Positions 23,782-54,063 of a DNA stretch of 64,000 bases are shown piece after piece. The notes beneath the pieces are model-generated. The model was given only the letters and a program-made list of their open reading frames with translations. It was not told where the DNA came from and did no database searches. This DNA comes from Hyphococcus sp. GTDB taxonomy: Bacteria; Pseudomonadota; Alphaproteobacteria; Caulobacterales; Parvularculaceae. The stretch lies in assembly GCA_028284345.1 (NCBI GenBank), contig JANQRY010000010.1:372001-436000 (forward strand), in the 5' to 3' direction. Every line of letters begins with the position of its first letter. Position 1 is the first letter of the stretch. The translations under genes and the position numbers were made by a program.

Positions 23782-25548
23782 ATGCCGCAGATCTCGATAA
23801 AATGGCTATTTTTGCTGATATTCCTGGCTGTTTGGCCGGTTTCGACACGCGCGCAAACCCTGGACGAAGTTTTGCGCGTCGTATTCGATACGAACCCTGA
23901 CATTCGGGCCGCGCGGGCGCGTCAAAAAGCAACGGCCGAAGCGACGAACCAGGCGCGATCCGGCTTATTGCCCCAAATCTCCGGAGAGGCGTCCTACGGA
24001 TCGTCGCAACACGACCAAGTCCTGAATTCGGATCTGTTCGCGCCGGGGGGCGGAGCTGCGGAGCGAGATTTCAGTCTCAATCCCGCGACGGCGGCCGTAA
24101 CGGCGAACCAAACGATTTTTTCCGGGTTTCGAAATCTCAACGCGATCAAGCAGGCGCGCGCGATCAAAAGCGCGGGCGAGGCGCAGCTTCGCGAGATCGA
24201 ACAGGAAGTTCTTCTCGAAGCAGCGACCGCATATTTCCAGGTCGTGTTGGACGTTCAGCTTTATGAAGCGAACAAAGCGAACCGCGACGTCGTTGCCGAA
24301 CAATTAAAGCACGCGAAAGCGCGACTCCGAGCTGGCGACATCACGGGAACGGACGTTAGCCAAGCCGAGGCGCGTCTTTCCAGAGCAGACGCCGAACTGT
24401 CCGCCGCGCAAGCGAGCCTTGCAGAGAGCCGCGCAAATCTTCGGAAAATCACGGGCGAGTCGCCGGGAACGCTCGATGACAGTCCCAGCCTGCCCCCCCT
24501 TCCTGAGTCAGAGCAAGTCTCACAGGAGATTGCACGGGAGCTGGCGCCGTCGATCGCGATCGCAAAACAGAATGAGTTGGCTTCACGACGGCAAATCGCC
24601 ATCGAAAACGCCGAATTCGCGCCGACAATATCCCTTGGCGCGCGGTATCAGTATTCTGATGAACCCAGCTCCTTCATTCAACGCGATGAGGAATTTTCTT
24701 ACGGCGTACGGGCAACAGTGCCGATTTTCCGCGGCGGGTTGCGCTTCTCCAAATCACGCGCCGCGAAAGCGTTAAACCGCCGCGACAAAGAGCTAATCGT
24801 CGCTGCGGAACGCGACGTTTTTTCAAAAGTATCGGTTGCGTGGAATGAGATCATCACCGCCCGCATCCGATTCATCGCCGCGCAGCGGCAAGTGGAGGCA
24901 AACACCAACGCATTTGACGGCGTGAACCGCGAGTGGGAACTCGGCGTGCGAACGACGCTCGATGTTTTGAACGCCGGCCAGGAAGTTTTGAATGCACAGA
25001 TTGCGCGCGCATCCGCGCGCCGCGACGAATACGTCGCGGCATATGGATTGCTCGCGGCGATGGGCATGCCGTTGATCGCTGACGCAACCGAAACGGCGTT
25101 TCAATCCGAACCGACGAATGCGCCAGGCGCGCCGTCACCGGTTAAGAACGCCGGCGTGATCGAAGCGGTCGCCGTCAATCAATCTGCGCCGCTCGACATC
25201 GCCGCCGACGGCAATTCTGAGCCCGCAGGCAAAACCGCTGTCCCCGCTCCTGTTTCAACAACGCCGCCCGTTGAAACATCAACTGAACTGATCCCTGCGA
25301 ACTACGGCCACATCGCCCAGATCGGCGCCTTCTCGACAGAAGAAGCCGCGCGCCGCGCTGTTACCGTTGTGACGACCGCAGACAACGCAGAGCTGGCGGC
25401 GCTTGTGGCGGAGTACGGCGCCGACGTGGTGTCCGTTCAAACGAATAGCGGCGCGCTGTTTCGCACCTTCATCGGACCAATGCCGTTTTCGCAAGCCAAG
25501 AAAGCGTGCGGCGCGTTCCCCGGGGATTGCTTCGTCTCCCGTCGATAG
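23782..25548 (+). CDS. TolC-family outer-membrane channel with C-terminal SPOR domain
   Basis: 588 residues. Signal peptide of 24 residues (MPQISIKWLFLLIFLAVWPV then STRA). Residues about 25-440 form the TolC/CyaE-type repeat of long helices and strands (QTLDEVLRVVFDTNPDIRAAR; LLPQISGEASY; AAVTANQTIFSGF; GVRATVPIFRGG; LDVLNAGQEVLNAQ). A Pro/Ala-rich linker follows, then from about residue 507 a SPOR-like domain (YGHIAQIGAFSTEEAARRAV; GALFRTFIGPMP), a fold that binds denuded peptidoglycan. The fusion is unusual. The gene is tail-to-tail with the lipid-synthase operon and, with the HlyD-type adaptor at 41365, could form a tunnel from inner to outer membrane for its product. Confidence 0.88.
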   Translation: MPQISIKWLFLLIFLAVWPVSTRAQTLDEVLRVVFDTNPDIRAARARQKATAEATNQARSGLLPQISGEASYGSSQHDQVLNSDLFAPGGGAAERDFSLNPATAAVTANQTIFSGFRNLNAIKQARAIKSAGEAQLREIEQEVLLEAATAYFQVVLDVQLYEANKANRDVVAEQLKHAKARLRAGDITGTDVSQAEARLSRADAELSAAQASLAESRANLRKITGESPGTLDDSPSLPPLPESEQVSQEIARELAPSIAIAKQNELASRRQIAIENAEFAPTISLGARYQYSDEPSSFIQRDEEFSYGVRATVPIFRGGLRFSKSRAAKALNRRDKELIVAAERDVFSKVSVAWNEIITARIRFIAAQRQVEANTNAFDGVNREWELGVRTTLDVLNAGQEVLNAQIARASARRDEYVAAYGLLAAMGMPLIADATETAFQSEPTNAPGAPSPVKNAGVIEAVAVNQSAPLDIAADGNSEPAGKTAVPAPVSTTPPVETSTELIPANYGHIAQIGAFSTEEAARRAVTVVTTADNAELAALVAEYGADVVSVQTNSGALFRTFIGPMPFSQAKKACGAFPGDCFVSRR

Positions 25549-25559
25549 CGACCGCGCTT

Positions 25560-26510
25560 TTACGCCCTTGACTTCATCATCTCGCGGTTCGCGTTTAATC
25601 TCGGATCTTTGCGAATAACGGCGCGCAAAAAACGCATCGTTGGAATCAAAAATCGCCTTGGATGCGAAATTGGAAAAAAGTGGCCGACATTAGGGATTTC
25701 TCGATAGATCGCGTGTGGGCAGAGGCGCGCCAGCGAACGCGCCGAAGGCAGCACCGGTGAATTCGCGCCAACAAGAATGAGCATAGGAACGGTCAGCCCT
25801 TGAAGATCAGTTGCTTCAACCCCGCGCGAGGCGCGTAAGCTTTGAACGAAGTCGGTGTTCTCCGTCAACGACAGCCATCGCAACGCGCTTCGACGGGAGC
25901 GAAAAACCCGGGCGTGCCGATACAAGGCCTGGAGAAGGGTTTCGGCGTCATCGCCCGCTTGCGCTTCGATGCGCGCAACGGTCTGAAGATAACCGACCCC
26001 GTCGTCCTTATACGAGCTATCCTCCAGGTCGATTCCAAGTTCGCTTAGTCGCTGTTTAACGTCGGGCGGAACGGTATGCGACGCAATCTGCAACCCTGTT
26101 TGGATTTGACGAAGACGAACATCAGCGAGCGCCAAACTCTCGACGCGCTCAGGATTTGAAACAGCGACCTTCAAGGCGATCATCCCGCCAAACGAATGGC
26201 TGACCAAATGCGCTTTCTCGATTCCCGTGTCGTCCATCAGTGCAATGAGGTCATCCGCCATGTCTTCAATGCGATAGCCGACTTGCGGCGTTTCGCTTTT
26301 GCCATGGCCGCGTAGATCATAGAGATAGCACGGTCCCAGCAGCGAAATGAAATTCGCGCCGGCGGCGTACCAAAAAGCAGACGACGCGGCGAGCCCATGA
26401 ATAAATATAATCGGGGTCGGATGTCGGCGATCGTCGATAGCCCGGCGCGGTGCGCGCCGGCTGATCTCCGTGACGTTTAGCTGAACGCCGTTTACGCTGA
26501 CTTTCCTCAT
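25560..26510 (-). CDS. Alpha/beta-fold hydrolase, possible chain-release enzyme
   Basis: 316 residues. HG oxyanion motif (IIFIHGLAASSAFW), DLRGHGKS, nucleophile Ser in LVSHSFGGM, and a late His in NVGHFFPISHP complete a standard catalytic set. It is the last gene of the synthase operon, 43 bases after the phosphatase-fold gene. The large synthases lack a thioesterase domain, so this protein could hydrolyse or transfer the finished acyl chain; that role is inferred from position. It could equally act on an ester of the mature lipid. Confidence 0.82.
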   Translation of the reverse strand: MRKVSVNGVQLNVTEISRRAPRRAIDDRRHPTPIIFIHGLAASSAFWYAAGANFISLLGPCYLYDLRGHGKSETPQVGYRIEDMADDLIALMDDTGIEKAHLVSHSFGGMIALKVAVSNPERVESLALADVRLRQIQTGLQIASHTVPPDVKQRLSELGIDLEDSSYKDDGVGYLQTVARIEAQAGDDAETLLQALYRHARVFRSRRSALRWLSLTENTDFVQSLRASRGVEATDLQGLTVPMLILVGANSPVLPSARSLARLCPHAIYREIPNVGHFFPISHPRRFLIPTMRFLRAVIRKDPRLNANREMMKSRA

Positions 26511-26553
26511 GCCGTTTATTTTATGGTCGCGCCGTCAATCAGGCTCGCCGGAA

Positions 26554-28182
26554 TTAGTCGTCTTCCAGATACCCGAGAAGCCGCAACTGTTCGAGCACTT
26601 CTTCACGTTCTTCATCCGTGGCTTCGCGGTCATCATCGTCGCCTTTCCCCACGATGCCCATTTCCGCATCCATAGGACGCGTCGGCGGTCCGATTTTTAC
26701 GGGATTGTCTGCAAGCCACGCCGGTTCAAAAAGGTCGTCGGGAATGACGCCTTCAAAATCTTCCGGCACCTCCATACCCATCGCGTGGGCGACGATCGTC
26801 GCCGTGTTGGCGATCGACATGGTGTCGCCGCGCATATTGCGCACGCCCGGTCCTGACATCAAAAACACGCCGTCCGGATGATGCGTGCCGAACGGCGTCG
26901 GGCGGGTCACCACAAAGGGCGTTTTGTTGCGAATCGACACGAAGCCGAAATCCGCCAAAACAAGGGTCAGATCCGGCGCATCTTCCATCGCCGGTCCGGG
27001 AAAGGCGTCCTCCCGCTTCATGACCTCGGTAATCACGGCTTCACCCGTCTCCGGATCGCGCAAAGCAAGGAGGTCCGCAATCAGTTTATCCCGGAACGCC
27101 TCGTATTCCTCCGGCGGAACGCCGTTCGGGTTTTTCTCCGACTTCTGGCGAATAACGACGCCGTTCGACGACGGCGTCGGCGTGAAGGCGAGCGTCCTTT
27201 CCCAATCGAGATTGGCGAAATCAGACAAATCGCGTTTTTTCGCGGATTCCGATCCATCGCTTTCCCGCCAATAAAGCAATCCCAGTTCAGCGAGATAAGC
27301 GTTGATGCGAACAACCTTGTCGGACGCCGCAAAGCCGTGATCGGATACGATCACCATATGGCAATCCTCGCCGCCCGCCGCAGCGTGAATTTCTTGAAGA
27401 TATCTGTCCAGATTACGAAAATACTGGATCACCAGTCTGCGCACCGACTTGGCCGCTTCGTCTCCCGTCCCGTCCCAAAGCTCGGGATCGAGGACATGCC
27501 ACGCCTGGTGCTGGATCTTGTCCGTGCCGTCAAACATTAGCGCAAAAAGGTCCGGATCGTCGTTTTGCAACAGATACATGCCGATATTGAACCATTGCTC
27601 GTCACGGGGCAGATGCGTTTCCACCCAGGCGTAAAGTTCGCTGTCGGGCATTAACTCGCCGATTTGGCTCTCGCGCTCAAAATCCCAGGACATTTCCCGC
27701 GCGTTAAAGCCTTCAATGGAATTGATCCGGTCAAAAAGCGTACTGGGCCACATATTTCTTTTAAGGTGCTTCCACGAAACGAAGCCCGGCACCAACGAGC
27801 CGTTTATCTCGGGCGGCGGCGCCATCATCGGGAAGTTCAACGAAACGACGCTGCGGTCCTTGCGGCTCGCAATCTGCCACAGGGTTTCCGTCCGGATGTC
27901 TCGGGCGTCGTAGAGCGTAAAATAGAGGTCGTCGCCCATATCCTTGAAGCGGACAAAATCGAATACGCCGTGATTGCCGGGCGTTCGTCCCGTAAAAACC
28001 GTTGTCCATGCCGGCGGCGTCAAGGGATGTTTCGTCGAACGGAGGTTCGCCGAATAACCTGAATTGATCATTTCCGCGAGAAAGGGCATCACAACGCCTT
28101 CCTCGGGATGCTCTGTCGTCAGCCCGTCAAGCACCGTGAACGTAGCGCCGTCCATACCGATCAGAAGTGTCGTTGTCATCAC
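26554..28182 (-). CDS. Alkaline-phosphatase-superfamily phosphodiesterase/phosphotransferase
   Basis: 542 residues, similar in plan to the type I phosphodiesterase/nucleotide pyrophosphatase group. Metal and active-site motifs: IGMDGATFTV, the Thr nucleophile in PPAWTTVFTG (about residue 60-61), FDGTDKIQHQAWH, IVSDHGF and FGTHHPDGVF. No signal peptide is seen, so it is probably cytoplasmic. The acidic C-terminus ends in EDD. It follows the ACP gene by 36 bases in the synthase operon. Members hydrolyse or transfer phospho groups on nucleotides and lipids; here it may modify or release a phosphate on the lipid product or on a head-group donor. The substrate is not known. Confidence 0.8.
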   Translation of the reverse strand: MMTTTLLIGMDGATFTVLDGLTTEHPEEGVVMPFLAEMINSGYSANLRSTKHPLTPPAWTTVFTGRTPGNHGVFDFVRFKDMGDDLYFTLYDARDIRTETLWQIASRKDRSVVSLNFPMMAPPPEINGSLVPGFVSWKHLKRNMWPSTLFDRINSIEGFNAREMSWDFERESQIGELMPDSELYAWVETHLPRDEQWFNIGMYLLQNDDPDLFALMFDGTDKIQHQAWHVLDPELWDGTGDEAAKSVRRLVIQYFRNLDRYLQEIHAAAGGEDCHMVIVSDHGFAASDKVVRINAYLAELGLLYWRESDGSESAKKRDLSDFANLDWERTLAFTPTPSSNGVVIRQKSEKNPNGVPPEEYEAFRDKLIADLLALRDPETGEAVITEVMKREDAFPGPAMEDAPDLTLVLADFGFVSIRNKTPFVVTRPTPFGTHHPDGVFLMSGPGVRNMRGDTMSIANTATIVAHAMGMEVPEDFEGVIPDDLFEPAWLADNPVKIGPPTRPMDAEMGIVGKGDDDDREATDEEREEVLEQLRLLGYLEDD

Positions 28183-28218
28183 TAGACTCCAATTAACTGT
28201 TTAACTTTACGAAGCGCG

Positions 28219-28518
28219 CTAGCCTTCCGCGGCGCCAAGCAATCTCGAGATAAGAAACGCCTCAATTTCGCGCACAGCGAGATCGTCTACATATCGCCCG
28301 TCCTGCATGAGAAGGTCTTGAAATCCGATGCCGCGGTTGTTGAATTCCGTTTCCACGGCGACGACCAACTGCGTGATATCGATTGAATCGAACTCGAGGT
28401 CGTCAACGACCTTGGTGTCCGCCGTTATGGGTGTGTCGAGACCCCAACTGTCGATAAAATTGGCGAGAGTCGTTCGAAACCGTGTTTTAATGTCGTCTGA
28501 CGTCACTACTGTTGTCAT
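28219..28518 (-). CDS. Free-standing acyl carrier protein
   Basis: 99 residues. The phosphopantetheine attachment motif is VVDDLEFDSIDITQLVVAVE, with the Ser in FDSID, in the standard helix II position, and a typical acidic four-helix length. It lies between the KS-AT-PPTase gene (84-base gap) and the phosphatase-fold gene. The synthase at 32514-40799 has only one internal ACP, so a separate carrier may load a starter, serve the second KS-AT pair or deliver the finished chain. It is shorter and more acidic than the fatty-acid AcpP pattern, so a dedicated role is likely. Confidence 0.88.
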   Translation of the reverse strand: MTTVVTSDDIKTRFRTTLANFIDSWGLDTPITADTKVVDDLEFDSIDITQLVVAVETEFNNRGIGFQDLLMQDGRYVDDLAVREIEAFLISRLLGAAEG

Positions 28519-28602: not shown

Positions 28603-31600
28603 TCAGGACACGCGGAGATAGGCGATTGCGCAAATACCGTCGCTAACCGGCTGGATAATCGCGTCGACTTTGTGCGCTCCGTAGACGACGACCGCCGTCT
28701 TCATGTCGGCATTGTTCGCGACGATCGAAAAATCCTTCGGACGGCCCTGTACGCCAACGCCGAGCGCTTTTGCGGCGGCTTCCTTAAGGACCCAAACGGC
28801 GACAGCGTTCGCGCCGGTCGGCGCGAGCGACAATCGGCGTTGCTCATCGTCGTTCAAAACGACGTCGATAAATTCACCGGGGTTTTGAACACGCGACGGC
28901 AAATCGAAATCCAATCCGATACGCCAATGCGCATCGGCGGCGGCGCCGAGCCCGTATCCGCCGGCATGGGCGATCGAAATGGACGGAAGCGGACCGGAAG
29001 AAAGGTCCGATTTGAGAAATGGCGCGCCTTCGTCATTCTTGAAGACTTCCAGGGAAGCAGCATCCGGCGTTAAGCCGGCGCCACCGAAAGCCAACTCGCC
29101 TGCGGCGCGCTTGACCGAAAGGCGACTGAGCGCCCATTCAAACCAGGCGCGCGACGCGCCTTTATCAGCTGAACGCGCGTTTGCTTCGATCTGCTCTGCA
29201 TGTCCGAGAAACGGCGAAACGCCCGCAAGGCTCGGTTGGCCCGTCATCAGATAGGCGCGCAACGGAAACGGCGTGGCGAATTTCTCTCCGATATTGAGCG
29301 TCAGAATTTTTTGCCGACGGTTAGAGCTGATTTGCTGCGCCGGCGCCGCTGTGTCCGTCGCAGGCGGCGGAAAATTTTTATCCAGGAGCTCCGACGCGAT
29401 GCGGCCCTGCCCCTTCACAAAATCGTCCATCAGAAAAATATGTTCATTCACAGCGGCCGCGTCCGATGCGGCTTGCTGCGCTGCGTTTTCGGCAAATGCC
29501 GGCGGCGCGTTGTAAACAGCTTGCGCGGGGTCCGTCGCCGCGGCCAAGGGTTGAGACGCCGGCGACATAGGCGTTTCAATCCCGTGATTTGCGCCGCCTT
29601 CGCCCAGCACCAAAGTTCTTAGCGTCTCGGCCTTCCCGGCATCGAGATGAATGTAAGGCGTCTCACTCGGCAATGCGGGCGCCGCCTGGTGTTTTTGGCG
29701 TTCCTTGGCGCGACGTTTCTGATCCCGCGTCGGCGCCGGTTTCATAATCGCTGTGGGATCTATCCGCACGCCGGCGACGAACAATCGACCGAGAAGGTGG
29801 CGCAGTTGCGAGACCAAGCCTCGCCGGCGGTTGTCCGCCGATTCCGCCAAATGCGGCTTGTCGCCAAGAATATCCCGAACAAACGCCGTAAGATTTGCGT
29901 TTGGGCCGCACTCGACGAAAATTCTGTGCCCGTCTTCATAGAGACGCTCAATCGCTTCCGTAAATCGCACTCGGGAGACGTATTGATTGACGGCCGTTTC
30001 CCGAAACGACTCTTTGTCCTTTGGAAACGGCGCCGCGGTCGCACAGGAATAGAGCGTTACGCCAGATGGTTTCAGGTTTACGTCACCGAACAACGCTTCG
30101 AACCGCTCCGCCATCGGAAGAACGTAATCTGTATGATACCCCCAGGAAATCGGCAGTTTTGAACAAACGGCGCCTTCAGAGACGACCTTATTCTGAATAC
30201 TGTCAATGTCGCCTTCATCGCCGAACAGCACCGACTGGTTCGGGCAATTGTCCATCGTGAAATGAACATTCGAATACTCATCCAGCAGCGCAACCAGCGC
30301 CGACCGGTCATAAGCGGCAACCGTCAATAGAACGCCTTTCGGGACGACGTCCTGTTTTTCGACGTCCTCGAAAATATCATTCATGCGTGAGATCATGTCG
30401 CCAATGCTCGCGCGATCGAGCTCAAGGTAGCCGCTGGCGACAATTGCAGCGTTTTCACCCGTCGAATGCCCAAGCATTGAGTCCGGCGCGACGCCAAGCA
30501 TCCGCAACATGGAATGGACAGCCTGGTCAGCGGCGAAAACCATTTCCGAGCCGTAATCGACGCGATGCATCAGGTTTTCGAGATGCGCTTTGCCGGGCTC
30601 GTCGACGAGCGTGGGCGGCGGGAAAATCACGTCCTGAATTCGCGTACCGCGTCGGCCGTCTGCAATGGAGCCAATAAAATCAAACCAATCGCGAACAACC
30701 GGATAATCGAGCGCCGACTCTCTCAGCATGTCCGGATACTGCGCCATTTCTCCCGGAAACAGGAACGCCACTTTTCCGCCGGTCGGCTGAGATTGATAAT
30801 GAACGCCGTTTCGCGTGTGGAATTGATCAGTGTCCGGTTTTTTAATTTTTTCGCTGGCCGTCGTAAGCTTCTTCAATAGATCCGCGCGGTTTGACGCAAC
30901 GATCGAAAGCCGTTGAGCGCCGGCCCGCGACGAGGCCAATTCCCAACTTTTCTTCGCCAGCTCGCCAAAATCGATATCGTCGTCCGCGTTTATAAGGGCG
31001 TCAATGCCAGCGAGAAGTTCTTCGCACGTATGATCGCTGAAAAAGAAAACGTGTTCGTCGTCGACGTCAGGCGACAGCGTGAGAGAAAAAACCGCCGTTG
31101 CGTCGGGCTCATTGCCGCCCGGCGCCTCTTCCAGAACCATGTGTGCATTTATGCCGCCAAATCCAAATGCATTAATCGCCGCTCGGCGCGGCGACGGCTT
31201 CGAGTGAATCCACGGGCGCGTTTGCGTGGAAACGTAGAACGGCGTGTCCTCCAGACCGATTTCGCCATTGACGCTATCGCAAATTGTAGGCGGAATAATT
31301 TTGTGCTTGAGCGCAAGTGCGGTTTTGATCATGGAGGCGGAGCCGGCCGCGGGAATGCAATGGCCGATCATGGATTTTACCGAACCGATGGCGATTGTCG
31401 GCGTCTCCTTGGTGCGCTCGCCAAAAATACCGCGCAACGCCTCAACCTCGGTCCGGTCACCCAAGGGAATGCCCGTGCCGTGCGCTTCGACCAGACCGAT
31501 GGTGGATGGTTCAATGCCGCTTGTCTCATAGGCGCGCTGTATGGCGAGCATCTCGCCCTCAACCCGCGGCGCCATGAGACCGGAACTCCGTCCGTCGGAT

Positions 31601-45001: not shown

Positions 45002-46141
45002 TTAGTCATCTAAATTTTTGTTATCATTGCGCCGGTTTCGGATCGTCGTGATAAGCGTTTTACGGGCATGGACCATCCACAACTTCGCCAGTTCGTCAAC
45101 CGTGTCTGCGCCGGCGGCCTGCTCCTCGGGTAGACCCTCAGCACTCGCCGCAGCGCACGCCTTCCGGAAGCAATTCGTCGCCTCGGCTGCATCGCCCGAA
45201 TTTAGCGCGAGATTCCCGTATAGAAAGAGCGCCACCGGGCGAAGCGCCGGCCGCGACGGAATCTCTCGAATTCGTTCCTCCGCTTCCGCCAGCTCGCCGT
45301 TTTCAATAAGCGACATGATTAACAACGCGCGATCGATAGGACGGTTTAAACCGGCGTCTATCATTCGCCTGAACTGATCGACGGCGACATCGGGGCGTTC
45401 GGACCGCATGGCCGCGCGCAAAACCATATCTATTACTTTCCGATCGGCTGTTGATATCTCAGCGCCGCGTTCATGGTTTTGCAAGTTATCTTTCAGCGCA
45501 GCGACGGCTTCCTGTTCGCGCCCCTCAGCCCTCATAAGCTGAATATACGCCTTGACCGCGCGCACATTGGATGGATTTTGCTGCAGCAAGGCGTTCAACT
45601 TATCGATGGCGATATCGGTCCGACCGCGCTTTTTCTGTATGCGGGCCATCAACTCATAGGCGCGCTCTATTGATGGATCGAGATCAATGACGTGCTCGCA
45701 CAGCAGCAAGGCGCCGTCTAAATCATCTTCGAGCAACTTGACGACCGCCGCGCCTAGATGCGCGCGTGCGGAATTCGGCTCCAGTCTTAGCGCTTCAGCG
45801 AAGGCCGCCGCGGCGCTGTCTACATCCTTCATGCGCAGATGCACGAGCCCGATGGCGATGGGCGCGTCAACATACATCGGGGCCAGCGCCTTGGCCTTTT
45901 GCGCAGCGCGCAGCGCGTCGTCGCATTTACCCTGTTTTAGCAAAATGCGCGCGAGCGCCACGAAGCCTTGAAAGGCGTCGGGTTCAACACGCAGATAATC
46001 GAGAATAGCGGCTTGCGCGGCTTCGACGCCCTCTTCCTTTTCGATCACGCGAAACTGCTGAACGATGTCGGTCGCGCGGTGGGCAGCCGGGTCTGTCGGG
46101 CGGGAAGACGCCACAGAAACGCCTCCTCTAGAAAGCCGCAT
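45002..46141 (-). CDS. Tetratricopeptide-repeat protein
   Basis: 379 residues. At least seven TPR units can be read from about residue 45 onward (GFVALARILLKQGKCDDALRA; YVDAPIAIGLVHLRMKDVDS; ARAHLGAAVVKLLEDDLDGA; AYELMARIQKKRGRTDIAID), with the W/L-G-A-P spacing of TPR helices, ending with a basic tail (TLITTIRNRRNDNKNLDD). No signal peptide or membrane segment is seen. Such proteins act as scaffolds; in sulfated-glycan and lipid clusters TPRs often accompany sulfotransferases, and two sulfotransferase-like genes are close by. The partner is not known. Confidence 0.82.
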   Translation of the reverse strand: MRLSRGGVSVASSRPTDPAAHRATDIVQQFRVIEKEEGVEAAQAAILDYLRVEPDAFQGFVALARILLKQGKCDDALRAAQKAKALAPMYVDAPIAIGLVHLRMKDVDSAAAAFAEALRLEPNSARAHLGAAVVKLLEDDLDGALLLCEHVIDLDPSIERAYELMARIQKKRGRTDIAIDKLNALLQQNPSNVRAVKAYIQLMRAEGREQEAVAALKDNLQNHERGAEISTADRKVIDMVLRAAMRSERPDVAVDQFRRMIDAGLNRPIDRALLIMSLIENGELAEAEERIREIPSRPALRPVALFLYGNLALNSGDAAEATNCFRKACAAASAEGLPEEQAAGADTVDELAKLWMVHARKTLITTIRNRRNDNKNLDD

Positions 46142-46402: not shown

Positions 46403-47449
46403 TCAAGCTGATGTTTCGGAAACGGCGACAATGAATTCGTTCTCGTTGCAAAAAACGCCGCATACGACGCCGTCGAATGCGCCTAACTGTTCAGAGTCAT
46501 TGTTTGTCGTAAAAGAATGAATTTCAGCCCCGCCGTCATCGCGCGTGAGCGCAGCAATCAGCGTATCTTCATTTGCTGCCAAATGCGTAAATGCGCCTTG
46601 CGCCCAGGCCGCGACCTTCGCAGCGCCGATCAAGGGGGTCATGAAGCCGTTTTCGCTTGGTCTCGCTTCGCCGCAAAGAATTTGCACATGGCCGTCAACG
46701 TCGACAGTGAGGATTTCTCCAGGGGAAGAAAATCCCAACATCCGCCGCCGTTCTATCGATGACAGTCCCACCGCCAGCGCCAGCTTATCGCCCCACCAAT
46801 AGCCGTCGCGCACAACGGAATTGAAGGCGTATCGCGCCGCCCCATCGCGGGCGATGGTCATCCAGCGGTCCTCGCCCTGTCGATACAGTTGAAAGCCGCG
46901 GCTTCGATCATCGATCGCGACCACCATGCGTCCGGCGCTGTCCGGCAGAAGGAGGCTCACCGCCTGGCCGGTTTCCAGTATCGGCCCGGCGATTGGCGGC
47001 GCGAAAAGCGGTTTGTCCAAATCCGCGCTATCATCGTTTATGGCTGAAAACGACGTTTCGCCGGCGGCATTCTGAAATACCGCAACAGGTTTGCCGTCAA
47101 CGGCGAACACACGCGCGGGGAGCAGGTCCGATGCGTCAGCGCGCCAGCGCGTAGTGGACCGGCGGCCGTCGATTTCAAGGACTCCCTGGCCGGGAAGAAG
47201 ACAGATCAGCCGTCTTTTTGATAATGCAATGATATCGGCGGCGCATCCTTCATTGGGCTCAGCGCCTTTCCAAAGCTCGGTCGCGGCGCCTTTCAAGTCC
47301 CACAAAGAAATACATGCCACTCCTTCGGCGTCCCGGCCCACGCTCGCTATGTGAAGACGGCTCGTCAAACCGACGGACAGCATGGCGGCCGCGTCGGGCG
47401 CCCGCCCGCCTCGCTCTCCGACCTGCACCACCCGGACGCGCGGCGCCAT
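46403..47449 (-). CDS. Protein of unknown function, predicted beta-propeller
   Basis: About 348 residues from the ATG at 47449, two bases after the sulfotransferase stop codon, so coupling is likely; an earlier TTG would overlap that gene. No family is recognised. The protein is almost all beta with repeating hydrophobic strands and turn motifs (IASVGRDAEGVACISLWDL; VAVFQNAAGETSFSAIN; RDGYWWGDKLALAVG; EILTVDVDGHVQILCG), the appearance of a divergent propeller. No signal peptide is present. It lies in the block of sulfotransferases and dioxygenase; function is unknown. Confidence 0.65.
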   Translation of the reverse strand: MAPRVRVVQVGERGGRAPDAAAMLSVGLTSRLHIASVGRDAEGVACISLWDLKGAATELWKGAEPNEGCAADIIALSKRRLICLLPGQGVLEIDGRRSTTRWRADASDLLPARVFAVDGKPVAVFQNAAGETSFSAINDDSADLDKPLFAPPIAGPILETGQAVSLLLPDSAGRMVVAIDDRSRGFQLYRQGEDRWMTIARDGAARYAFNSVVRDGYWWGDKLALAVGLSSIERRRMLGFSSPGEILTVDVDGHVQILCGEARPSENGFMTPLIGAAKVAAWAQGAFTHLAANEDTLIAALTRDDGGAEIHSFTTNNDSEQLGAFDGVVCGVFCNENEFIVAVSETSA

Positions 47450-47451
47450 CT

Positions 47452-48363
47452 TTATTGGTAACCCAGACAATTGGCGAGTTGGGTGAGGTAGTCGCGACGA
47501 CCTTGATCGTATTTTGCGCCGTCGCCGTTTTCGAGGAAATCTTTCAGACTTCCCAAAGTTGGCTTACCGGGCCGGAATTTAGGACTAGAAATGAATTTCG
47601 GGTCATTTCCAAACGGCGCAATGGCCGGTCCTGGCCTGGCGTAGGGCGAGTCCTCAGGTCGCAACATGGCTGCAATCGCTTCATCATCGGTTCGCAATTG
47701 CAGCCACTCAGCCACTTGGCGCATCATGTTTTCCGCGTCTGCCAATACGTCTTCGCCACGAAGGCGCAGATACTGGCCCGGCGCGAGCGTCGCGCAAAAA
47801 TCAAGGATGTTTCGCTGCGTCAGCGGCCAGGCCGTCATCGAATTTTCCAGCCGGATCCTTTTTTCTTCTTCGCTTAAACGGGGCAAATTGGCGATATACT
47901 CATCGAGCGACTTTTTCAGATTCACAGGGTGACGGGTAACATGAATGTATAAGGCGTTCGGAAATGATTTTCGCACGCGATTGAGCGCGGAGGGTTGAAA
48001 CACAAGGGTCGGCGTTTTTTCAAGGCAGAACTTCGCGCCCTTTGCAGCGCTTGCTTTCTCCATGATATATTGAAGCGCGTCTTTTGATTTCCAATCGCGC
48101 CGGTCCTCAAGCCAGTTGGCGGCCGACAGAACGTTTTCGGTCGATTGCCCGCCGAATTCCAATTCCGCCAATGCGCGAAGCAGCCCTTGAGACCCCAGAT
48201 ACTGCCGCCTCTTTCGGCCCCATTCAATGACTTCGCCGACAGTACCCCGCATCACCAGGTGCAATTCCGGGAACCCGTAGATTTCCGGATGCTGACCAAT
48301 CATCGTAGAGACAAGCGATGAAAATGATCGCGGCGGGCACAACATCATTAACAAACGCGCCAT
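47452..48363 (-). CDS. Sulfotransferase-family protein
   Basis: 303 residues. Near the start LMMLCPPRSFSSLVSTMIGQ fits the 5'-phosphosulfate-binding loop, and YIHVTRHPVNLKKSLDEYI fits the 3'-phosphate-binding strand of PAPS-dependent sulfotransferases. FCLEKTP between them is also typical. It probably moves sulfate from PAPS to a hydroxyl or amine in the cytoplasm. It is five bases from the preceding unknown gene and two bases from the following one. With the second sulfotransferase-like gene at 50088 it suggests a sulfated product of this cluster, but the acceptor is inferred. Confidence 0.82.
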   Translation of the reverse strand: MARLLMMLCPPRSFSSLVSTMIGQHPEIYGFPELHLVMRGTVGEVIEWGRKRRQYLGSQGLLRALAELEFGGQSTENVLSAANWLEDRRDWKSKDALQYIMEKASAAKGAKFCLEKTPTLVFQPSALNRVRKSFPNALYIHVTRHPVNLKKSLDEYIANLPRLSEEEKRIRLENSMTAWPLTQRNILDFCATLAPGQYLRLRGEDVLADAENMMRQVAEWLQLRTDDEAIAAMLRPEDSPYARPGPAIAPFGNDPKFISSPKFRPGKPTLGSLKDFLENGDGAKYDQGRRDYLTQLANCLGYQ

Positions 48364-48368
48364 CGCAG

Positions 48369-48989
48369 TCAGTCCGTATCATCTTTCGTAGAAACCGACC
48401 CATTGTCAGGCGGCAATTCCTCGAGACGTTGCCTGAGCCGATCAAGCAGCATGCCAAGCCCCTTGTCGACGGTTTCAACAATCGTTTTCCGCGCGATCAG
48501 TTCACGCTGCAATATCAGCAATTCGTGCCGCCCGCTTGTGTCGATCAGGTTCAGGCTTTCTTCGTGAATCTGGTCGCGCAAGGAGCGCCAAACAGCTGCC
48601 GCCCCGCGAAGCCCGGCTTCTTCAGGCCGTTCCGTGAGATATGGTTTTTCAAGCAGGTTCGCGCGTAACTCCGTATCGACTTCGCGCGGATCAACACGAT
48701 TTCGCAGCGCCTTTTCCCGCAGGAATTCCATATAGTCCGCGGAAAAGGGGTCGCGCGCCGCAATCTCGTCTCGCGAATCCGGCATCGGATCGCGGACCAA
48801 CGCTTCATCAAGAAACAGATCGCGTTCTGACAAGACGTCGTCTAGCGAAACGCTTTCGATGTCGCCGACGATGTCAGGATCATTCGCCTCATTGTCGTCG
48901 CCCGGCAGGTTTTGAGCCGACGTCTTTTGCTTGGTATCAGCGCGCGATGCTTTTTTCTTGTCAGGCGGCGCCTTGTCATTGCCCGCCAT
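48369..48989 (-). CDS. Acidic protein of unknown function
   Basis: About 206 residues from the ATG at 48989. No family recognised. The N-terminus is charged and low-complexity (MAGNDKAPPDKKKASRADTK), the middle is very rich in Asp and Glu (DDNEANDPDIVGDIESVSLD), and the C-terminal part is probably helical with a coiled-coil look (VETVDKGLGMLLDRLRQRLEELP). No signal peptide or membrane segment. It lies 42 bases after the dioxygenase gene and five bases before the sulfotransferase, so it is an integral member of this transcription unit and may be an accessory or scaffold protein. Confidence 0.7.
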   Translation of the reverse strand: MAGNDKAPPDKKKASRADTKQKTSAQNLPGDDNEANDPDIVGDIESVSLDDVLSERDLFLDEALVRDPMPDSRDEIAARDPFSADYMEFLREKALRNRVDPREVDTELRANLLEKPYLTERPEEAGLRGAAAVWRSLRDQIHEESLNLIDTSGRHELLILQRELIARKTIVETVDKGLGMLLDRLRQRLEELPPDNGSVSTKDDTD

Positions 48990-49037
48990 TTTCAAACTCC
49001 GTCATGATATGCAGTCAATATTCGCCGCCGCAGTTTC

Positions 49038-49976
49038 TTATACGCCTTGGCCATGCAGGGCTTCCGCGCTTAGCCTCATGATGATGTCCCGTCCGGTGTC
49101 GTCATAAGCCCGCCGGCCATGCATGACCCGCATATTATCGACGACGGCGACCATGCCGGGCGCCCAGGGAACCTCAACCGTTAAAGACTCTGCAATGGCA
49201 TTGATTTCCATCAGCATGGACTTCGACAGTTCAGAGTCGTCCTCGAAGCGAACGAAGCTATCATCCATGTCGGCGATATATTCGCGCGCCGCCCAGACAA
49301 GAACCGAGTTGACAAAGGCGCGCCCGGATTTGTGATCATTATAGGCATAGCAAGTGTGCACCGTTTCGATACCGCCATCCGCATGGGTCGTCAGCGACAC
49401 ATTCATCTTTGCACAAATCGCTTTCACAGCCTCGAGATTATCGACCTTGTAGACCGCTTTCCAGCTTTCATCCGTATAAATTCGACGGTATTTCAGTTTT
49501 CTCTCTGTAAAGAGCGTACGCACGGCTTCCGGAAGCGCATTCCATAGCAACACGCCGTCACAGATCGTTGTTTCTCCGCGCTCGTCGGCGGGACGAATAC
49601 AGCAGAAAAACAGCGCTGGCGGCCGGGGCTGCGTATAGAACATTTCGCCATGCAACGGGATCGCCTGCCTTGCGACGGCGCCGCCGGTGACCGTTAACAC
49701 CGTTTTGCTGTCGCCATAGGCAGAGTCACGTTCGTTATTCGCGCCGCCTACATATTCCATAAAGTTATTCGAATAGCGTTCCGTGAACGCCACAAAACCT
49801 GGCCGGTCCACGTCCAAGCCCCGGAGGAGCACGGCGCCATGTTCGTGGTAAGCATCAAGCACCGTCTGGGACTCAATTTCAACAGCGGAGCGTGCACCGG
49901 CGAAATCCAAAATGGCGCCAGCTTGTAACGGCGTAATCGTTATGCCGGCGGAATCGGCGTTTTGCTGCTTGGTCAT
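49038..49976 (-). CDS. TauD/TfdA-family Fe(II)/2-oxoglutarate dioxygenase, SyrP-like
   Basis: About 312 residues from the ATG at 49976 (MTKQQNADSAG); longer frames upstream begin with non-homologous sequence. The metal-binding triad is PLHGEMFYT (His-x-Glu, as in SyrP and clavaminate synthase rather than the usual His-x-Asp) and the distal His in NMRVMHGRRAY; the 2-oxoglutarate Arg is in IIMRLSAEAL. PRPPALFFCCIRPADERGETTI is the segment typical of SyrP-like hydroxylases of carrier-bound acyl groups. It probably hydroxylates the chain, producing a site the sulfotransferases could use. Target is inferred. Confidence 0.85.
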   Translation of the reverse strand: MTKQQNADSAGITITPLQAGAILDFAGARSAVEIESQTVLDAYHEHGAVLLRGLDVDRPGFVAFTERYSNNFMEYVGGANNERDSAYGDSKTVLTVTGGAVARQAIPLHGEMFYTQPRPPALFFCCIRPADERGETTICDGVLLWNALPEAVRTLFTERKLKYRRIYTDESWKAVYKVDNLEAVKAICAKMNVSLTTHADGGIETVHTCYAYNDHKSGRAFVNSVLVWAAREYIADMDDSFVRFEDDSELSKSMLMEINAIAESLTVEVPWAPGMVAVVDNMRVMHGRRAYDDTGRDIIMRLSAEALHGQGV

Positions 49977-50087
49977 CCTGGCGCCAACCCATAAGATGCG
50001 ACTATCAATAGCATGCCATAATTCACCGCAACGCCGCCAGTGCGACATACTCGCCGCGTCGCGGTTAACCAAAAACTACGAGTATAG

Positions 50088-51068
50088 CTAAACTATGCTA
50101 TAGCCGAATTCCAGCGCCAGCGCCGCCACTTCAGGTACGATCCGTCCGCCGTCGCCGCGCCACGGCAAGGGCGCATCTGTCTCAATCGGATTGGATTGTC
50201 CTTGCGACGCGCGAAATTGTGCGGCGATCGGCTGGCGAAAAATCTCGTAATCCGCGCCGAAGGGCGCCGCATAGGATCCGGTTCCGTCGAACGGCGTCTG
50301 CGCAGCTTTCAGCATTGCCGAGACCCGCGCTTCGCTCGCATCAACGCCGAGCCATTGTAATAGCGCCTGGAGCGTTTGGTCCGGCGCCGCAAAGAGCGTT
50401 TCGATTTGCAGGCGCATCGCCCTATCAGACGGCGCATCTTTCAGCAGATCAAAAGCGGCCCGATGGGTGCGATGCCAGGCAAATTGCGGATCGAAAACGG
50501 GCGGCGTCGTCGACCAGTCGATGTATTGCTCTCCAATCTCAAATATATCATAGAACGGATGAAACCGACCGCGTTCGGACCACTGTTCAAAACTGGCGGT
50601 GACTGTTTGCCATACCGGCAAGCGCAGCGCGTTGCCCTGCGCAATGGGATCCCGGGTCAAATGAATAATCGCAGCGTCCTGACAAGCATTGAGAACGCGC
50701 TCCATAACGCTACGGCTTTGCGCATAGAGAGGGCTGTAGTCGACCAAACGCTGAGGCGCGGCCAGCGCTGTGAGTTGCTTGTATACCGCTTCCGCCGGTT
50801 CCTCGATGCGGCGGCCCATCCACCGCATCGCCGCATATGCCGACTGTACGCTTTGTTCGCCGGTTAAACGATCGCCAAGAAACCGCAACAGGCCATGAAT
50901 ATTGCTGTCGCGCGGCACGCGCGCGTAGCGCCTGAGTTGCCAAAGATCTTCAAACGCCAGAACGTTCAGTTGAGGAGCGCCATAGAACTCCGGGTGTGCG
51001 CCCAATATGGCCGATAGATAACTGCCGCCTGATTCACGCGATGCAAGGATGATAACGGGCCGCGCCAT
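50088..51068 (-). CDS. Second sulfotransferase-like protein
   Basis: About 326 residues from the ATG at 51068. The loop IILASRESGGSYLSAILGAH stands where the PAPS 5'-phosphosulfate motif lies, with LIDYSPLYA-like middle (RLVDYSPLYAQ) and IIHLTRDPIAQGNAL for the 3'-phosphate motif. The overall plan follows the other sulfotransferase at 47452, but the P-loop Lys/Pro is replaced (ASRESGGS against CPPRSFSS), so activity may differ. It lies two to five bases after the SBBP-repeat gene and before the dioxygenase gene. Either a second acceptor or a related transfer is possible. Confidence 0.75.
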   Translation of the reverse strand: MARPVIILASRESGGSYLSAILGAHPEFYGAPQLNVLAFEDLWQLRRYARVPRDSNIHGLLRFLGDRLTGEQSVQSAYAAMRWMGRRIEEPAEAVYKQLTALAAPQRLVDYSPLYAQSRSVMERVLNACQDAAIIHLTRDPIAQGNALRLPVWQTVTASFEQWSERGRFHPFYDIFEIGEQYIDWSTTPPVFDPQFAWHRTHRAAFDLLKDAPSDRAMRLQIETLFAAPDQTLQALLQWLGVDASEARVSAMLKAAQTPFDGTGSYAAPFGADYEIFRQPIAAQFRASQGQSNPIETDAPLPWRGDGGRIVPEVAALALEFGYSIV

Positions 51069-51073
51069 CAATC

Positions 51074-52513
51074 TTATTTTCCGTCAAGGCGATAAAAGAC
51101 GACTGCTGAATCGCGCTCCGACGGCGTGCGCATTTCCGTACTGCCAACGCGCAGGCCGCCGCGAAATCGCAACGCCTGCGCGAGGTATTTTGCATCGCGC
51201 GACACCGAAAGGACGTCGCCCAATGCGCCGGCGCCGCGTTCGTTGGGTTCAGGCGTGAAAATGAACCGCGGTCGACCGTCGGCGGTGAACCCCGCAATAT
51301 AGCTCGTTGGAAGCCCGCCAGGCGGCTGAATAACATCAAGTTGTTCTTTATTACGGCGCACGGTGACTTTCTGATCAATCAGCCCGGAAACAATAACCCC
51401 GCGCTGATCGGACTGCATCTCTGCGCCCTCGCCATGACCGGGCCCCGCCATGGAAACCATCCACTCCGGCTCGCCGCCGGCCGACAATCTTAGCAAATAA
51501 TCGTCGCCCTTTCGGCCCAGCGCAGGCACTCGGCGATTGATCATGAATGTCCGCCCGTGAATCACGCCGGAAACGTATACCGATCCATTCGGCCCGGCCG
51601 CGAGACCGCGCACATTGTCCCTCCTTCGGCCGCCGACAGGCAGAAGCCATTGCACTTCGCCGTCCGAATTCAGTTTGGCGACCGCCCCATCCCAGCCGCC
51701 AAAACTCTCCAGCCGCATTCCGTCAATTTCAAGTTCGCCGCGATATTGGAAACCGACAAACACGGTCCCTGCATCATTGATTGCAATTGCGCGAATCCGC
51801 TCCGTGCCGGATCCGCTCACTGGCCGCACCCAAACAACGCCGCCGTCAGGCCGCATTCGGATAACAAACGAATCGCGACGGCCGCCGCCATACGAAAATT
51901 TTTGTCCGTCGACCGAAAAGTCCCCTTCGCTGATCCCGCTGACAACGATTTCGCCGTTCGCGAGCACGGCCACCTCGTTGCCGCCGGCGCCAGCAACGCC
52001 GCCAAAGGACTTGGCCCACTTCAGCGATCCATCGGGAGAAAACTTCGCGATGAACATATCGACGGATCCGCGACTGGTCAGCGTCGTCCCGCCGAAATCC
52101 ACACTGTCGCTGAACCAACCGCTTGCAATAATATTCCCGGCACCGTCCGTGGTCAGATCATATGTGTTGTCATCGCCTGATCCGCCAATGCGCATGGACC
52201 AGTTCAAGGTCCCGTTCGGCGAATAGCTGGCAAGAAAAATGTCGCCCTCGCCGCGACTTCGATATGTATCTTCGCCTAACCGGATTTGATTACGGAAAAT
52301 CCCTGAGATGATTGTGTTTCCCGACGGATCAACCGAAATGCCATCGATCTCGTCCGGCGCCGCGTCGATTTCTCCAACCGGCGCCGCCCAGACGACTTCA
52401 GGCGAGGTCCACACATGCTTTGACGACGCCGCACATGCAGACGTAAACGCGATCAGCAGCGCCGATGTTATTGTTGCAGCGGTCCAAACTTCTATCTTGC
52501 GCAACCGTGCCAT
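51074..52513 (-). CDS. Exported SBBP-type beta-propeller protein
   Basis: 479 residues. Basic N-terminus and hydrophobic stretch (IEVWTAATITSALLIAFTSAC) make a signal peptide; the Cys within it may be a lipobox, though TSAC is a weak one. From about residue 45 six or more repeats of the SBBP type are visible (VDPSGNTIISGIFRNQIRLG; TTDGAGNIIASGWFSDSVDF; FIAKFSPDGSLKWAKSFGG; LAAGPNGSVYVSGVIHG). Such propellers bind ligands or partners at the cell surface. Its start overlaps the end of the upstream gene by 22 bases, so it is co-transcribed with it. Confidence 0.8.
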   Translation of the reverse strand: MARLRKIEVWTAATITSALLIAFTSACAASSKHVWTSPEVVWAAPVGEIDAAPDEIDGISVDPSGNTIISGIFRNQIRLGEDTYRSRGEGDIFLASYSPNGTLNWSMRIGGSGDDNTYDLTTDGAGNIIASGWFSDSVDFGGTTLTSRGSVDMFIAKFSPDGSLKWAKSFGGVAGAGGNEVAVLANGEIVVSGISEGDFSVDGQKFSYGGGRRDSFVIRMRPDGGVVWVRPVSGSGTERIRAIAINDAGTVFVGFQYRGELEIDGMRLESFGGWDGAVAKLNSDGEVQWLLPVGGRRRDNVRGLAAGPNGSVYVSGVIHGRTFMINRRVPALGRKGDDYLLRLSAGGEPEWMVSMAGPGHGEGAEMQSDQRGVIVSGLIDQKVTVRRNKEQLDVIQPPGGLPTSYIAGFTADGRPRFIFTPEPNERGAGALGDVLSVSRDAKYLAQALRFRGGLRVGSTEMRTPSERDSAVVFYRLDGK

Positions 52514-54063
52514 ATTTCGGTTCCCCCTCTGGGATTAAAGCGATACTCCCACGCACCATCTGGTTTTCGAAACGCCGAATGCGGACCAAACTGGTTCTGA
52601 GACCCAATGTAAACGCCATGCGGCGTACTCAATATATTTCTGACGCCATGATTGAAGGGATTTTCAAAGCCGCAGCGCGTTACCGGCACCCAGTTCTCGC
52701 CATCTCGGCTTCGCCAAAGGTCATAGCCGCCCCAGGTTTCGACAAATTCTTCAATATCAATCCGGCTAAAGATCTTCGCCGCCGGCGAACCCAGCTTCTC
52801 CATGTCCCGATACAACAGAAATACGAGCCAGTCTTGCGTGCCGGCATACAGCCAGCCATCGTGAACGCCTTGCTTATAGATGGATCCGGAAAATGCGTTG
52901 TTAAATCCCGGCAACATCCCGGAAAGCGGGCCGTCGGGCGTCCGTTTATTACCGACAATAACGTCATAGGCGCCGCTGCGGGGATCAAACCGAATGAGTT
53001 CAGGCCCTACGGGGCCGACTTTATTGGCCTTGTCGATGCCGCCCTTTTGCACGCCCGACCCTATGTAGATGTCGCCGTGAAACTCAGCCATGGAAACGAC
53101 CCCCTGGCTGGTCCGGCCGCGCTCAGCGCCGTCTTTCAATAGTTGCGTCCATTCAAATGGCGGTTCGCCTTCCGCTTTGGTGCGCCACAACTGATATCCC
53201 TTCGCAAGATTGGCCGTGCCGGCGTAGAGATAGTCGTCCGTTGCAAGCATCTCGAACACGCCGATATTGGAAAGATCGCCAAAGCCGCGGGTATTTGCAT
53301 GCGCCCACTCGCCTTTCGCTGGATCGCGGCTAACGAGAACGGCGGCAATGCCGGAGGCGTTTTGACGGCCGCCGGTCGCGCCCGTCGGGCTGGTGAAAAG
53401 CATGTCCTTGAACGGAACGAGGCTGCGCGTCGACGTGCAGTCAACGCCGCCGAGGCCAGGCGGGCCCGCCGCTTCGAAGGTCTCGCCGTCGGTCGACCGC
53501 AACAATTGCATGCCGTACCCGCGAGAGCGCGACCACGCCGAGACATAAAGAGCCGGCTCTGCATCGCTCGCGCCCTGAAACACCGCCATTGCGCGATAGC
53601 CAAGATCCCGGCTCATCCAGGTGCCGTCGCTGCCGTGAACCATGGGCGCTTGATAAACGCGCTTCCATTCGCCCGTTTCGGGATTTAAGCGCCAGATTTC
53701 GGCCCTCGCCCGTTTGGTTTCGAATTCCTGCGAATAAACCCGATGCTTGATTTCAACCGGCCATGCATCAAGGCTGACGTCTTTCATGCCGCCTTTGTCG
53801 CCGGCGCCAAGGAGCGCCATTGTGGCGCGCGACGTTCCAACAAGTATATGATCTTTGTAATACGCCATCGAGTGGGCGTAAGAATTATCGCCGTCGCCAA
53901 AACCGTTTTCGGAGACTTGGCGAAAATCAGCGCGATTTAATCCATATCCTGACAATTTGGAATTGCGCCTGTTTTGTTGTTGATTGGTTCGATTTCCGTC
54001 CACGGCGTGCGCGTTGGCTAGATCAGACCCCTTCGTCGAGGAAACAACGCCGAAATCCCCCAT
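52492..54063 (-). CDS. Large protein of unknown function, predicted beta-propeller
   Basis: About 523 residues from the ATG at 54063, which has GGGTGAG upstream; a longer frame to 54183 begins with an implausible leader. Repeating units such as HSMAYYKDHILVGTSRATM, YLYAGTANLAKGYQLWR, DIYIGSGVQKGG and GWLYAGTQDWLVFLLYR show a beta-propeller with a YxG(T/S) turn per blade, and Trp-rich turns (DLWRSRDGENWVPV). No known family is recognised. No clear signal peptide is seen with this start, so its location is uncertain. It is the first gene of the second minus-strand block. Confidence 0.68.
   Translation of the reverse strand: MGDFGVVSSTKGSDLANAHAVDGNRTNQQQNRRNSKLSGYGLNRADFRQVSENGFGDGDNSYAHSMAYYKDHILVGTSRATMALLGAGDKGGMKDVSLDAWPVEIKHRVYSQEFETKRARAEIWRLNPETGEWKRVYQAPMVHGSDGTWMSRDLGYRAMAVFQGASDAEPALYVSAWSRSRGYGMQLLRSTDGETFEAAGPPGLGGVDCTSTRSLVPFKDMLFTSPTGATGGRQNASGIAAVLVSRDPAKGEWAHANTRGFGDLSNIGVFEMLATDDYLYAGTANLAKGYQLWRTKAEGEPPFEWTQLLKDGAERGRTSQGVVSMAEFHGDIYIGSGVQKGGIDKANKVGPVGPELIRFDPRSGAYDVIVGNKRTPDGPLSGMLPGFNNAFSGSIYKQGVHDGWLYAGTQDWLVFLLYRDMEKLGSPAAKIFSRIDIEEFVETWGGYDLWRSRDGENWVPVTRCGFENPFNHGVRNILSTPHGVYIGSQNQFGPHSAFRKPDGAWEYRFNPRGGTEIWHGCAR

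Follow-up and report, generated by a model that had tools for sequence, protein, structure and literature searches.

A Pfa-Like Synthase Locus of Hyphococcus sp. as a Putative Cluster for an Exported, Modified Long-Chain Lipid

Introduction

Pfa-like secondary lipid synthases were catalogued in 2011 as Types A-T, and, in the portion of that catalogue drawn on here, Type O comprises two marine Alphaproteobacteria and Gloeobacter, its members being Dinoroseobacter, Parvularcula and Gloeobacter sequences (Shulse and Allen, 2011; PMC3098273). Two further systems bear on such loci: heterocyst glycolipids, which excerpts of PMC6161253 describe as made by a Pfa-like synthase and exported via HgdD (TolC)-DevBCA, and the OLS/CurM sulfotransferases, which, in the sections used of PMC3903477, add a sulfo group to a beta-hydroxyacyl chain, enabling a thioesterase to generate a terminal alkene. 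Here we analyze a 64,000-nucleotide stretch of Hyphococcus sp. (GCA_028284345.1, contig JANQRY010000010.1, positions 372,001 to 436,000; hereafter the window), part of a 3.41-Mb genome in 10 contigs, which carries a sixteen-gene block around a synthase of this kind. On taxon spread only, the window synthase is probably of Type O.

Our preferred reading, held with moderate confidence, is that the block forms a single cluster for making and exporting a specialised long-chain lipid. As judged from comparative sequence analysis, it joins an iterative Pfa-/ArsA-like synthase (PKS1 and the phosphopantetheinyl transferase [PPTase]-bearing PKS2) and a free acyl carrier protein (ACP) to partners that travel with them, namely the alkaline-phosphatase (AP)-superfamily protein P0013, the propeller P0007, a phosphodiesterase-like protein (PDE) and an alpha/beta hydrolase, often accompanied by sulfotransferases (STs) and a HlyD fusion. 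A previous sequence-only reading had proposed a cluster for an exported, modified long-chain lipid, and this now appears the most likely reading of the cluster.

A Conserved Synthase Cluster

The block spans about 23.8-54.2 kb of the window according to open-reading-frame (ORF) lists and a Pfam scan of 40 window ORFs, which covered 15 of the sixteen genes. These sources bear out the gene content first described (synthase and partners, ACP, two AP-superfamily proteins, hydrolase, HlyD protein, two Sulfotransfer_3 proteins, TauD, TPR and propeller proteins), as follows:

23782..25548, plus strand: TolC-family outer-membrane channel with a C-terminal SPOR-like domain (PF02321, 207 bits; TIGR01844, 274 bits; SPOR, 20.0 bits)
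25560..26510, minus strand: alpha/beta hydrolase (PF00561, 98 bits)
26554..28182, minus strand: P0012 (PDE), AP-superfamily phosphodiesterase-like protein (PF01663, 141 bits)
28219..28518, minus strand: free ACP, 99 aa, Ser in DSI (TIGR00517, E 1.6e-6, below cut-off)
28603..32514, minus strand: PKS2, ketosynthase (KS)-acyltransferase (AT)-PPTase (Pfam, NCBIfam, active-site motifs)
32514..40799, minus strand: PKS1, tandem FabK/NMO-like enoyl reductase (ER) region-KS-AT-ACP-ketoreductase (KR)-dehydratase (DH) (Pfam, NCBIfam, motifs, tree)
41365..44064, plus strand: polytopic membrane domain fused to a HlyD-type periplasmic adaptor (PF13437, PF16576)
44096..44926, minus strand: P0013, small domain of the AP superfamily, nucleophile position occupied by Thr (PF00884, 48 bits [47.7])
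45002..46141, minus strand: TPR protein (Pfam; 38-46% identity in three relatives)
46403..47470, minus strand: P0005, possible second P0007-like propeller, a weak match (P0007 profile, 14.8 bits)
47452..48363, minus strand: ST1, Sulfotransfer_3 (PF13469, 87 bits)
48369..48995, minus strand: P0006, small charged protein beside ST1 (43% homologue in a Rhodobacteraceae metagenome-assembled genome [MAG]; no Pfam match)
49038..50072, minus strand: TauD/SyrP-like Fe(II)/2-oxoglutarate dioxygenase, HxE...H (PF02668, 131 bits)
50088..51071, minus strand: ST2, Sulfotransfer_3 (PF13469, 46 bits)
51074..52513, minus strand: SBBP-type beta-propeller, lipoprotein-like N-terminus by eye (NF047494, 76 bits, cut-off 400)
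52492..54183, minus strand: P0007, beta-propeller without a Pfam family (structure model; conservation from about residue 80)

The TolC gene (plus) is thus followed by a minus-strand run from the hydrolase to PKS1, the HlyD fusion (plus) and a second minus-strand run of nine genes from P0013 to P0007. Within both minus-strand runs, neighbouring genes lie -22 to 84 bases apart, save for one gap of 261, and PKS2 and PKS1 share a one-base overlap. Because conservation of P0007 starts near residue 80, the in-frame ATG at 54063, where the block had originally been ended, is as plausible a start as 54183.

The sequence-only reading proposed a search for the same neighbourhood in other genomes and would have been refuted had the synthase block and the 44-54 kb block never turned up in company there. 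That refutation does not come about: Alphaproteobacteria, Betaproteobacteria, Gammaproteobacteria and Cyanobacteria all include genomes with both blocks, and partial neighbourhoods are present in Planctomycetota and Actinomycetota. A genome-contig scan with the synthase gave the best 80 of 544 confirmed loci, 27 of which were taken to whole genomes; many were chosen for already matching neighbours, so these are not a random sample. In these 27 synthase-positive genomes, P0007 is present in 26 (the sole exception being Azotobacter), PDE in 25, P0013 in 22 and a TauD homologue in six. Twenty-seven loci were then mapped, 25 from the chosen genomes plus G622 and G704 from a random phylum sample; the window is not counted, and Azotobacter, one acidobacterium and G416 (of the genus of G704) are excluded. 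The mapped stretches vary in length, several are cut off by the end of a contig, and the choice of some followed from a known P0007 position. They hold PKS1 (27), PKS2 (26), P0007 (26), PDE (25), the hydrolase (24), HlyD (20), ACP (20), P0013 (19), a sulfotransferase (19), TauD (4) and TPR (3). A polyhydroxybutyrate-depolymerase-like esterase (a provisional name) occurs in 16 of the 27 loci (L105, L108, L118, L139 and others) and has no match within the window.

Rhodovulum, Roseovarius and a Rhodobacteraceae MAG carry the synthase genes with P0013, P0007, sulfotransferases, the HlyD fusion, PDE and the hydrolase. In the MAG, the nearest relative, the cluster is scattered over several contigs, on one of which TauD-ST2-SBBP-P0007 directly adjoins hydrolase-PDE-ACP-PKS2, the two blocks of the window being joined in a different order. 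A single contig of Fischerella holds the cluster together with TauD, ST and P0013; the stretch of Stagnimonas that bears P0007, the sulfotransferase and HlyD is on a different contig from the synthase. Carriers known to strain level include Rhodovulum bhavnagarense DSM 24766, Fischerella thermalis PCC 7521 and Solimonas fluminis. For the Fischerella strain, one table row of a published survey lists no orphan nonribosomal peptide synthetase (NRPS)/polyketide synthase (PKS) cluster (PMC4558948).

A less biased sample of 398 genomes, drawn evenly across the phylum, contained the synthase stretch in 10, P0013 in four and P0007 in four, the last two in the identical four genomes, all synthase-positive; two of these share a genus and one is the window's own, leaving about two independent cases. 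At the thresholds used, P0007, PDE and P0013 were each found in none of the other six synthase-positive genomes. Among 289 genomes of the class, a 681-aa synthase stretch was found at 1e-30 in its own genome only, and the other 59 relatives in a set of 60, among them 27 from the same genus, gave no PDE at 1e-20; given the absence of PDE from these 27, the block is accessory, and it is rare. A plasmid search with P0007 gave no match, and one with P0004 returned 12 records that matched the HlyD part only, with no useful neighbourhood.

A 565-base gap and a strand switch separate PKS1 from the HlyD fusion, as would be expected of two unrelated blocks lying side by side. The neighbourhoods shared with relatives and the co-occurrence of P0013 and P0007 in the phylum sample argue against that account, which we consider extremely improbable; by these comparisons the block is one conserved cluster rather than a set of chance neighbours. 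It does not stand out as a compositional island, since GC content at third codon positions (0.589-0.697 in the 16 cluster genes, 0.621-0.729 in 12 flanking genes) shows no clear foreign signal. Rfam at gathering score gave zero matches in the window, which also contains no tRNA. In the left flank, positions 2249-4192 encode a multihaem-cytochrome-like protein (Cytochrome_C554, MtrC/F-like).

The Synthase

PKS1 scores 1025.3 bits against the PfaA model TIGR02813, above its cut-off of 1010.1, with the Pfam domain order NMO/FabK-like (twice)-KS-AT-ACP-KR-DH and one ACP motif. The catalytic motifs of KS, AT, ACP, KR, DH and PPTase are all present in PKS1/PKS2. KS, ACP and KR lie in one cluster and are homologous to PfaA, and the linked PPTase of PKS2 has the motif ISIAH, which fits the hShxH of the M-T group; both are features by which secondary lipid synthases are recognised, the latter as defined in the excerpted catalogue (PMC3098273). 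PKS2 is 52-56% identical in Rhodovulum, Roseovarius and the Rhodobacteraceae MAG. The free ACP is the 99-aa ORF at 28219-28518, for which NCBIfam acyl-carrier models stay under cut-off; a 114-aa ORF at 40772-41116 was rejected for this role, having no Pfam match.

A 45-synthase tree places the window with the Rhodobacteraceae MAG, Roseovarius and Rhodovulum (starred, 100), separate from the Azotobacter/Beijerinckia group. A plasmid search found related synthases (37.5-39.4% identity) in Methylosinus, Beijerinckia, a Rhodobacteraceae plasmid and Streptomyces. That of the Rhodobacteraceae plasmid adjoins a TauD gene, a methyltransferase and a PPTase gene, and that of Streptomyces is followed by a KS gene, ACP and an alpha/beta hydrolase, without PDE in between.

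Domain content varies among relatives. PKS2 of Bosea, Fischerella and Nitrosomonas (L113, L115-L116, L137), in frames of about 1600-1700 aa, has an extra PKS1-DH-like stretch between AT and PPTase; no extra DH-like match is listed for PKS2 of Rhodovulum, Roseovarius and the MAG, which at about 1300 aa is as long as the window's. PKS1 of Haliea and Solimonas (L126, L141, L143) shows several tandem ACP matches, against one in the window's. The Hyphococcus genome also encodes a further large KS-containing protein, in an open frame of 964 aa, with the genome's best KS score (G000:C5:523315-524079).

Sulfotransferases and the Fate of the Sulfate

The nearest solved structures to ST1 are 4gox (OLS) and 4gbm (CurM), and 4gox is also the best PDB match of ST2. 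Against OLS and CurM, ST1 scores 62 and 60 bits and ST2 50 and 31 bits. Since Sulfotransfer_3 proteins are common in the lineage (54 of 60 relatives), generic controls were needed. A first set of 30 generic loci with high Pfam scores, in hit-bearing open frames of 401-755 aa that are probably of TPR type, reached at most 33 (OLS) and 31 (CurM) bits. A second set of 20 further loci with shorter frames, one of which repeats a place of the first set, reached 57 (OLS) and 53 (CurM) bits, with no hit at three loci for OLS and at seven for CurM. The cluster sulfotransferases of relatives exceed these second maxima in 11 of 23 cases (OLS) and 12 of 23 (CurM); ST1 exceeds them too, and ST2 does not. 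Because the generic short-frame proteins overlap the cluster scores, the likeness of ST1 and ST2 to the OLS/CurM activating type is suggestive only.

Stronger evidence than these scores comes from Neptuniibacter, in which a cluster gene fuses ACP to a sulfotransferase that scores 160 bits against both OLS and CurM, the ACP part being 49% identical to the free ACP of the window over 63 residues. Given this fusion of ACP to an OLS-like sulfotransferase, sulfation probably acts on the ACP-bound chain. The gene lies in Neptuniibacter marinus (L139, about 7962-9278; stitched 26963-28279), and P0013 and PDE were not found in the Neptuniibacter genome at the thresholds used.

The same likeness, together with the fusion, would also fit a cryptic sulfation, in which ST activates a beta-hydroxyacyl-ACP and a hydrolase resembling the CurM/OLS thioesterase decarboxylates it with loss of sulfate, yielding a terminal-alkene hydrocarbon or polyene. 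The alpha/beta hydrolase, whose S106, D130 and H277 are invariant in 14 of 14 aligned sequences, has D130 24 residues past Ser106; in the CurM thioesterase and in haloalkane dehalogenases, the Asp likewise lies 24 residues after the nucleophile. However, its best matches are generic esterases and dehalogenases, the CurM thioesterase not being named among the best 60 of 104, and the hydrolase is retained in all eight of the 27 loci that lack a sulfotransferase and is therefore independent of sulfation, which tells against a role confined to sulfate-dependent elimination. The scores of generic short sulfotransferases also tell against this account, and a single elimination does not require at least two sulfotransferases per cluster, the number found in eight of 14 ST-bearing stretches counted. 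We regard a cryptic sulfation as unlikely. Retention of sulfate in the product is tentatively favoured over its loss because the HlyD fusion is present in 17 of 19 sulfotransferase-positive loci and several relatives hold at least two sulfotransferases.

Phosphatase-Superfamily Proteins and the Dioxygenase

The assignment of P0013 to the sulfatases, made by Pfam, does not hold literally. Formylglycine sulfatases carry their nucleophile in a C/S-x-P-x-R motif, which is absent here; since the nucleophile position is Thr (Thr42, motif WT[AS]PSH) in 18 of 18 aligned members, P0013 is no such enzyme. It scores 65 bits against the STM4013-type model NF038075 (cut-off 250), and its structure model (pLDDT 73.8) matches sulfatases and phosphoethanolamine transferases alike with poor superposition, so that the predicted fold does not settle its function between sulfatase-like and phosphoethanolamine-transferase-like. 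In PDE, the residues D11, T55, D221, H225, D281, H282 and H434 are invariant in 19 of 19. The set D,T,D,H,D,H,H is that of two-metal NPP/AP-type phosphodiesterases, and PDE, as far as its sequence tells, keeps it in full.

These two proteins could instead point to a phospho- or phosphodiester lipid as the product, with the sulfotransferases acting on a glycan or protein that shares the locus. The complete two-metal set of PDE, its being commoner than ST (25 versus 19 of 27 loci), and the Thr nucleophile and phosphoethanolamine-transferase matches of P0013 speak for this alternative, whereas the ACP-ST fusion of Neptuniibacter and the position of the window sulfotransferases inside an operon-like run speak against it; on balance it seems improbable to us.

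The TauD homologue has the H-x-D/E...H arrangement of Fe(II)/2-oxoglutarate dioxygenases, its triad H141-x-E143...H318 being invariant in six of six sequences.

Propellers and Export

P0007 matches no Pfam family at E 0.01, and no signal peptide was seen by eye. Its model, built from an alignment of six, is a predicted beta-propeller (pTM 0.87), and Foldseek returned generic propellers with TMq <=0.52 among the 50 best matches listed. P0005 reaches 14.8 bits against the P0007 profile, with E 4.8e-6 in an 11-sequence search with filters off, and the SBBP propeller has a homologue of 49% identity in the Rhodobacteraceae MAG.

As for export, the TolC-SPOR channel of the sequence-only reading stands in its TolC part, the SPOR match at 20.0 bits falling just below the cut-off of 21; its M50-like label for the HlyD fusion is contradicted by the absence of HExxH anywhere in 11 members and of a Pfam M50 match in six, the window among them. 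Rubrivivax and two MAGs also have TolC near HlyD (24-25% identity). No ABC transporter is present among the Pfam-scanned ORFs of the block. In Methylosinus (L011) and Beijerinckia (L012), the synthases lie near an ABC permease, an ATPase and a periplasmic adaptor, with TolC too in Methylosinus. The pairing of a lipid synthase with a tripartite exporter thus recurs, and by analogy heterocyst glycolipids offer a precedent for TolC-linked adaptor export of the window's product.

Sulfotransferases, TPR and export genes would also be compatible with a polymer, and the synthase might, as RkpA/WcbR do, supply a surface polysaccharide with its lipid anchor, for which the excerpted account of wcb/rkp gives a precedent (PMC3908369). 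The Pfam-scanned ORFs of the block include no glycosyltransferase or capsule-export family, and we consider such an anchor very improbable.

Proposed Pathway

In the lipid cluster that we favour, PKS1/PKS2 would assemble the chain out of malonyl units, with keto reduction, dehydration and enoyl reduction as optional steps. The free ACP would carry this chain; in that bound state it may be hydroxylated by the dioxygenase, and its hydroxyl groups would be sulfonated by sulfotransferases dependent on 3'-phosphoadenosine 5'-phosphosulfate. The alpha/beta hydrolase likely performs chain release. A phosphate ester, in the head group or on the carrier, may be what PDE and P0013 act upon, P0007 could serve as a scaffold or binding protein, and the HlyD-fused membrane protein together with TolC would bring the product to the surface.

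Several observations weigh against this pathway. The 27 genomes were selected from 80 loci, many for matching neighbours, and some stretches were fetched at known P0007 sites. Eight of the 27 loci are without a sulfotransferase, so sulfation is not universal in this kind of cluster, and TauD is at four only. The overlap of the lineage's short sulfotransferases (57 and 53 bits) with the cluster scores counts here as well, and no energy source for the exporter was found.

A broader proposal, which we put forward tentatively and hold to be rather doubtful, is that the locus represents a specialised lipid class across several phyla, made by a Pfa-like synthase, whose iterative assembly would employ sulfonation of the ACP-bound chain as a chemistry for repeated decoration or for alkene formation. 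The regular partners of the synthase would be the Thr-nucleophile AP-superfamily domain and the beta-propeller family without a Pfam entry. Were the carrier-bound chain indeed sulfated, this would, across several phyla, either extend the rare chemistry of sulfonation as activation or bring to light a new sulfated lipid of the cell surface. A kind of secondary lipid synthase that probably figures among the uncharacterised ones of the 2011 list now has a defined gene set, named partners and strain-level carriers, which open its product to gene-deletion and lipidomic studies.

Comparison With Described Systems

The sequence-only reading knew of no characterised pathway with this combination of genes. 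That holds for the openly licensed literature searched, in which no description of the partner set was found, although the synthase kind itself is in the 2011 catalogue, as its excerpted part shows (PMC3098273). With the secondary lipid synthases of that catalogue, again as excerpted, the window shares a Pfa-type KS-AT-ACP-KR synthase, a second KS-AT protein and a linked PPTase; the paper nowhere uses the terms sulfatase, phosphodiesterase or HlyD (PMC3098273).

In canonical polyunsaturated fatty acid (PUFA) synthases (pfaA-E), PfaA carries 4-6 ACPs in tandem, and pfaB, pfaC and pfaD are separate, whereas PKS1 of the window has one ACP motif and an N-terminal ER-like fusion, and the PPTase lies within PKS2. 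Hybrid PKS-NRPS-PUFA-synthase clusters, in the portion of the report used, resemble the window in yielding specialised lipids from Pfa-like genes (PMC13291983). The main text of that report contains no 'sulf' words (PMC13291983), and the window block has no NRPS by Pfam.

The OLS/curacin ACP-ST-TE (thioesterase) termination resembles the locus in providing the nearest solved ST structures and in the ACP-ST fusion of one relative. In OLS/CurM, however, ACP-ST-TE is one polypeptide, whereas the window encodes ST, ACP and hydrolase in separate genes and, unlike OLS, has an iterative Pfa-like synthase and no fatty acyl-AMP ligase among the scanned ORFs of the block.

The phenolic-lipid synthase of Azotobacter/Beijerinckia (Type P) shares with the window an N-terminal ER-like region fused to KS-AT-ACP-KR. 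Type III PKS genes flank the Type P cluster, whereas the 40 scanned ORFs of the window include none, and, at the thresholds used, P0007, PDE and P0013 are all missing from Azotobacter. The heterocyst glycolipid system has other partner genes, and the window block lacks an ABC transporter by Pfam (no search for hgl, hgd or dev was made); the heterocyst system shares with the window a Pfa-like synthase, and its own products are long-chain hydroxylated lipids that leave the cell by tripartite TolC export.

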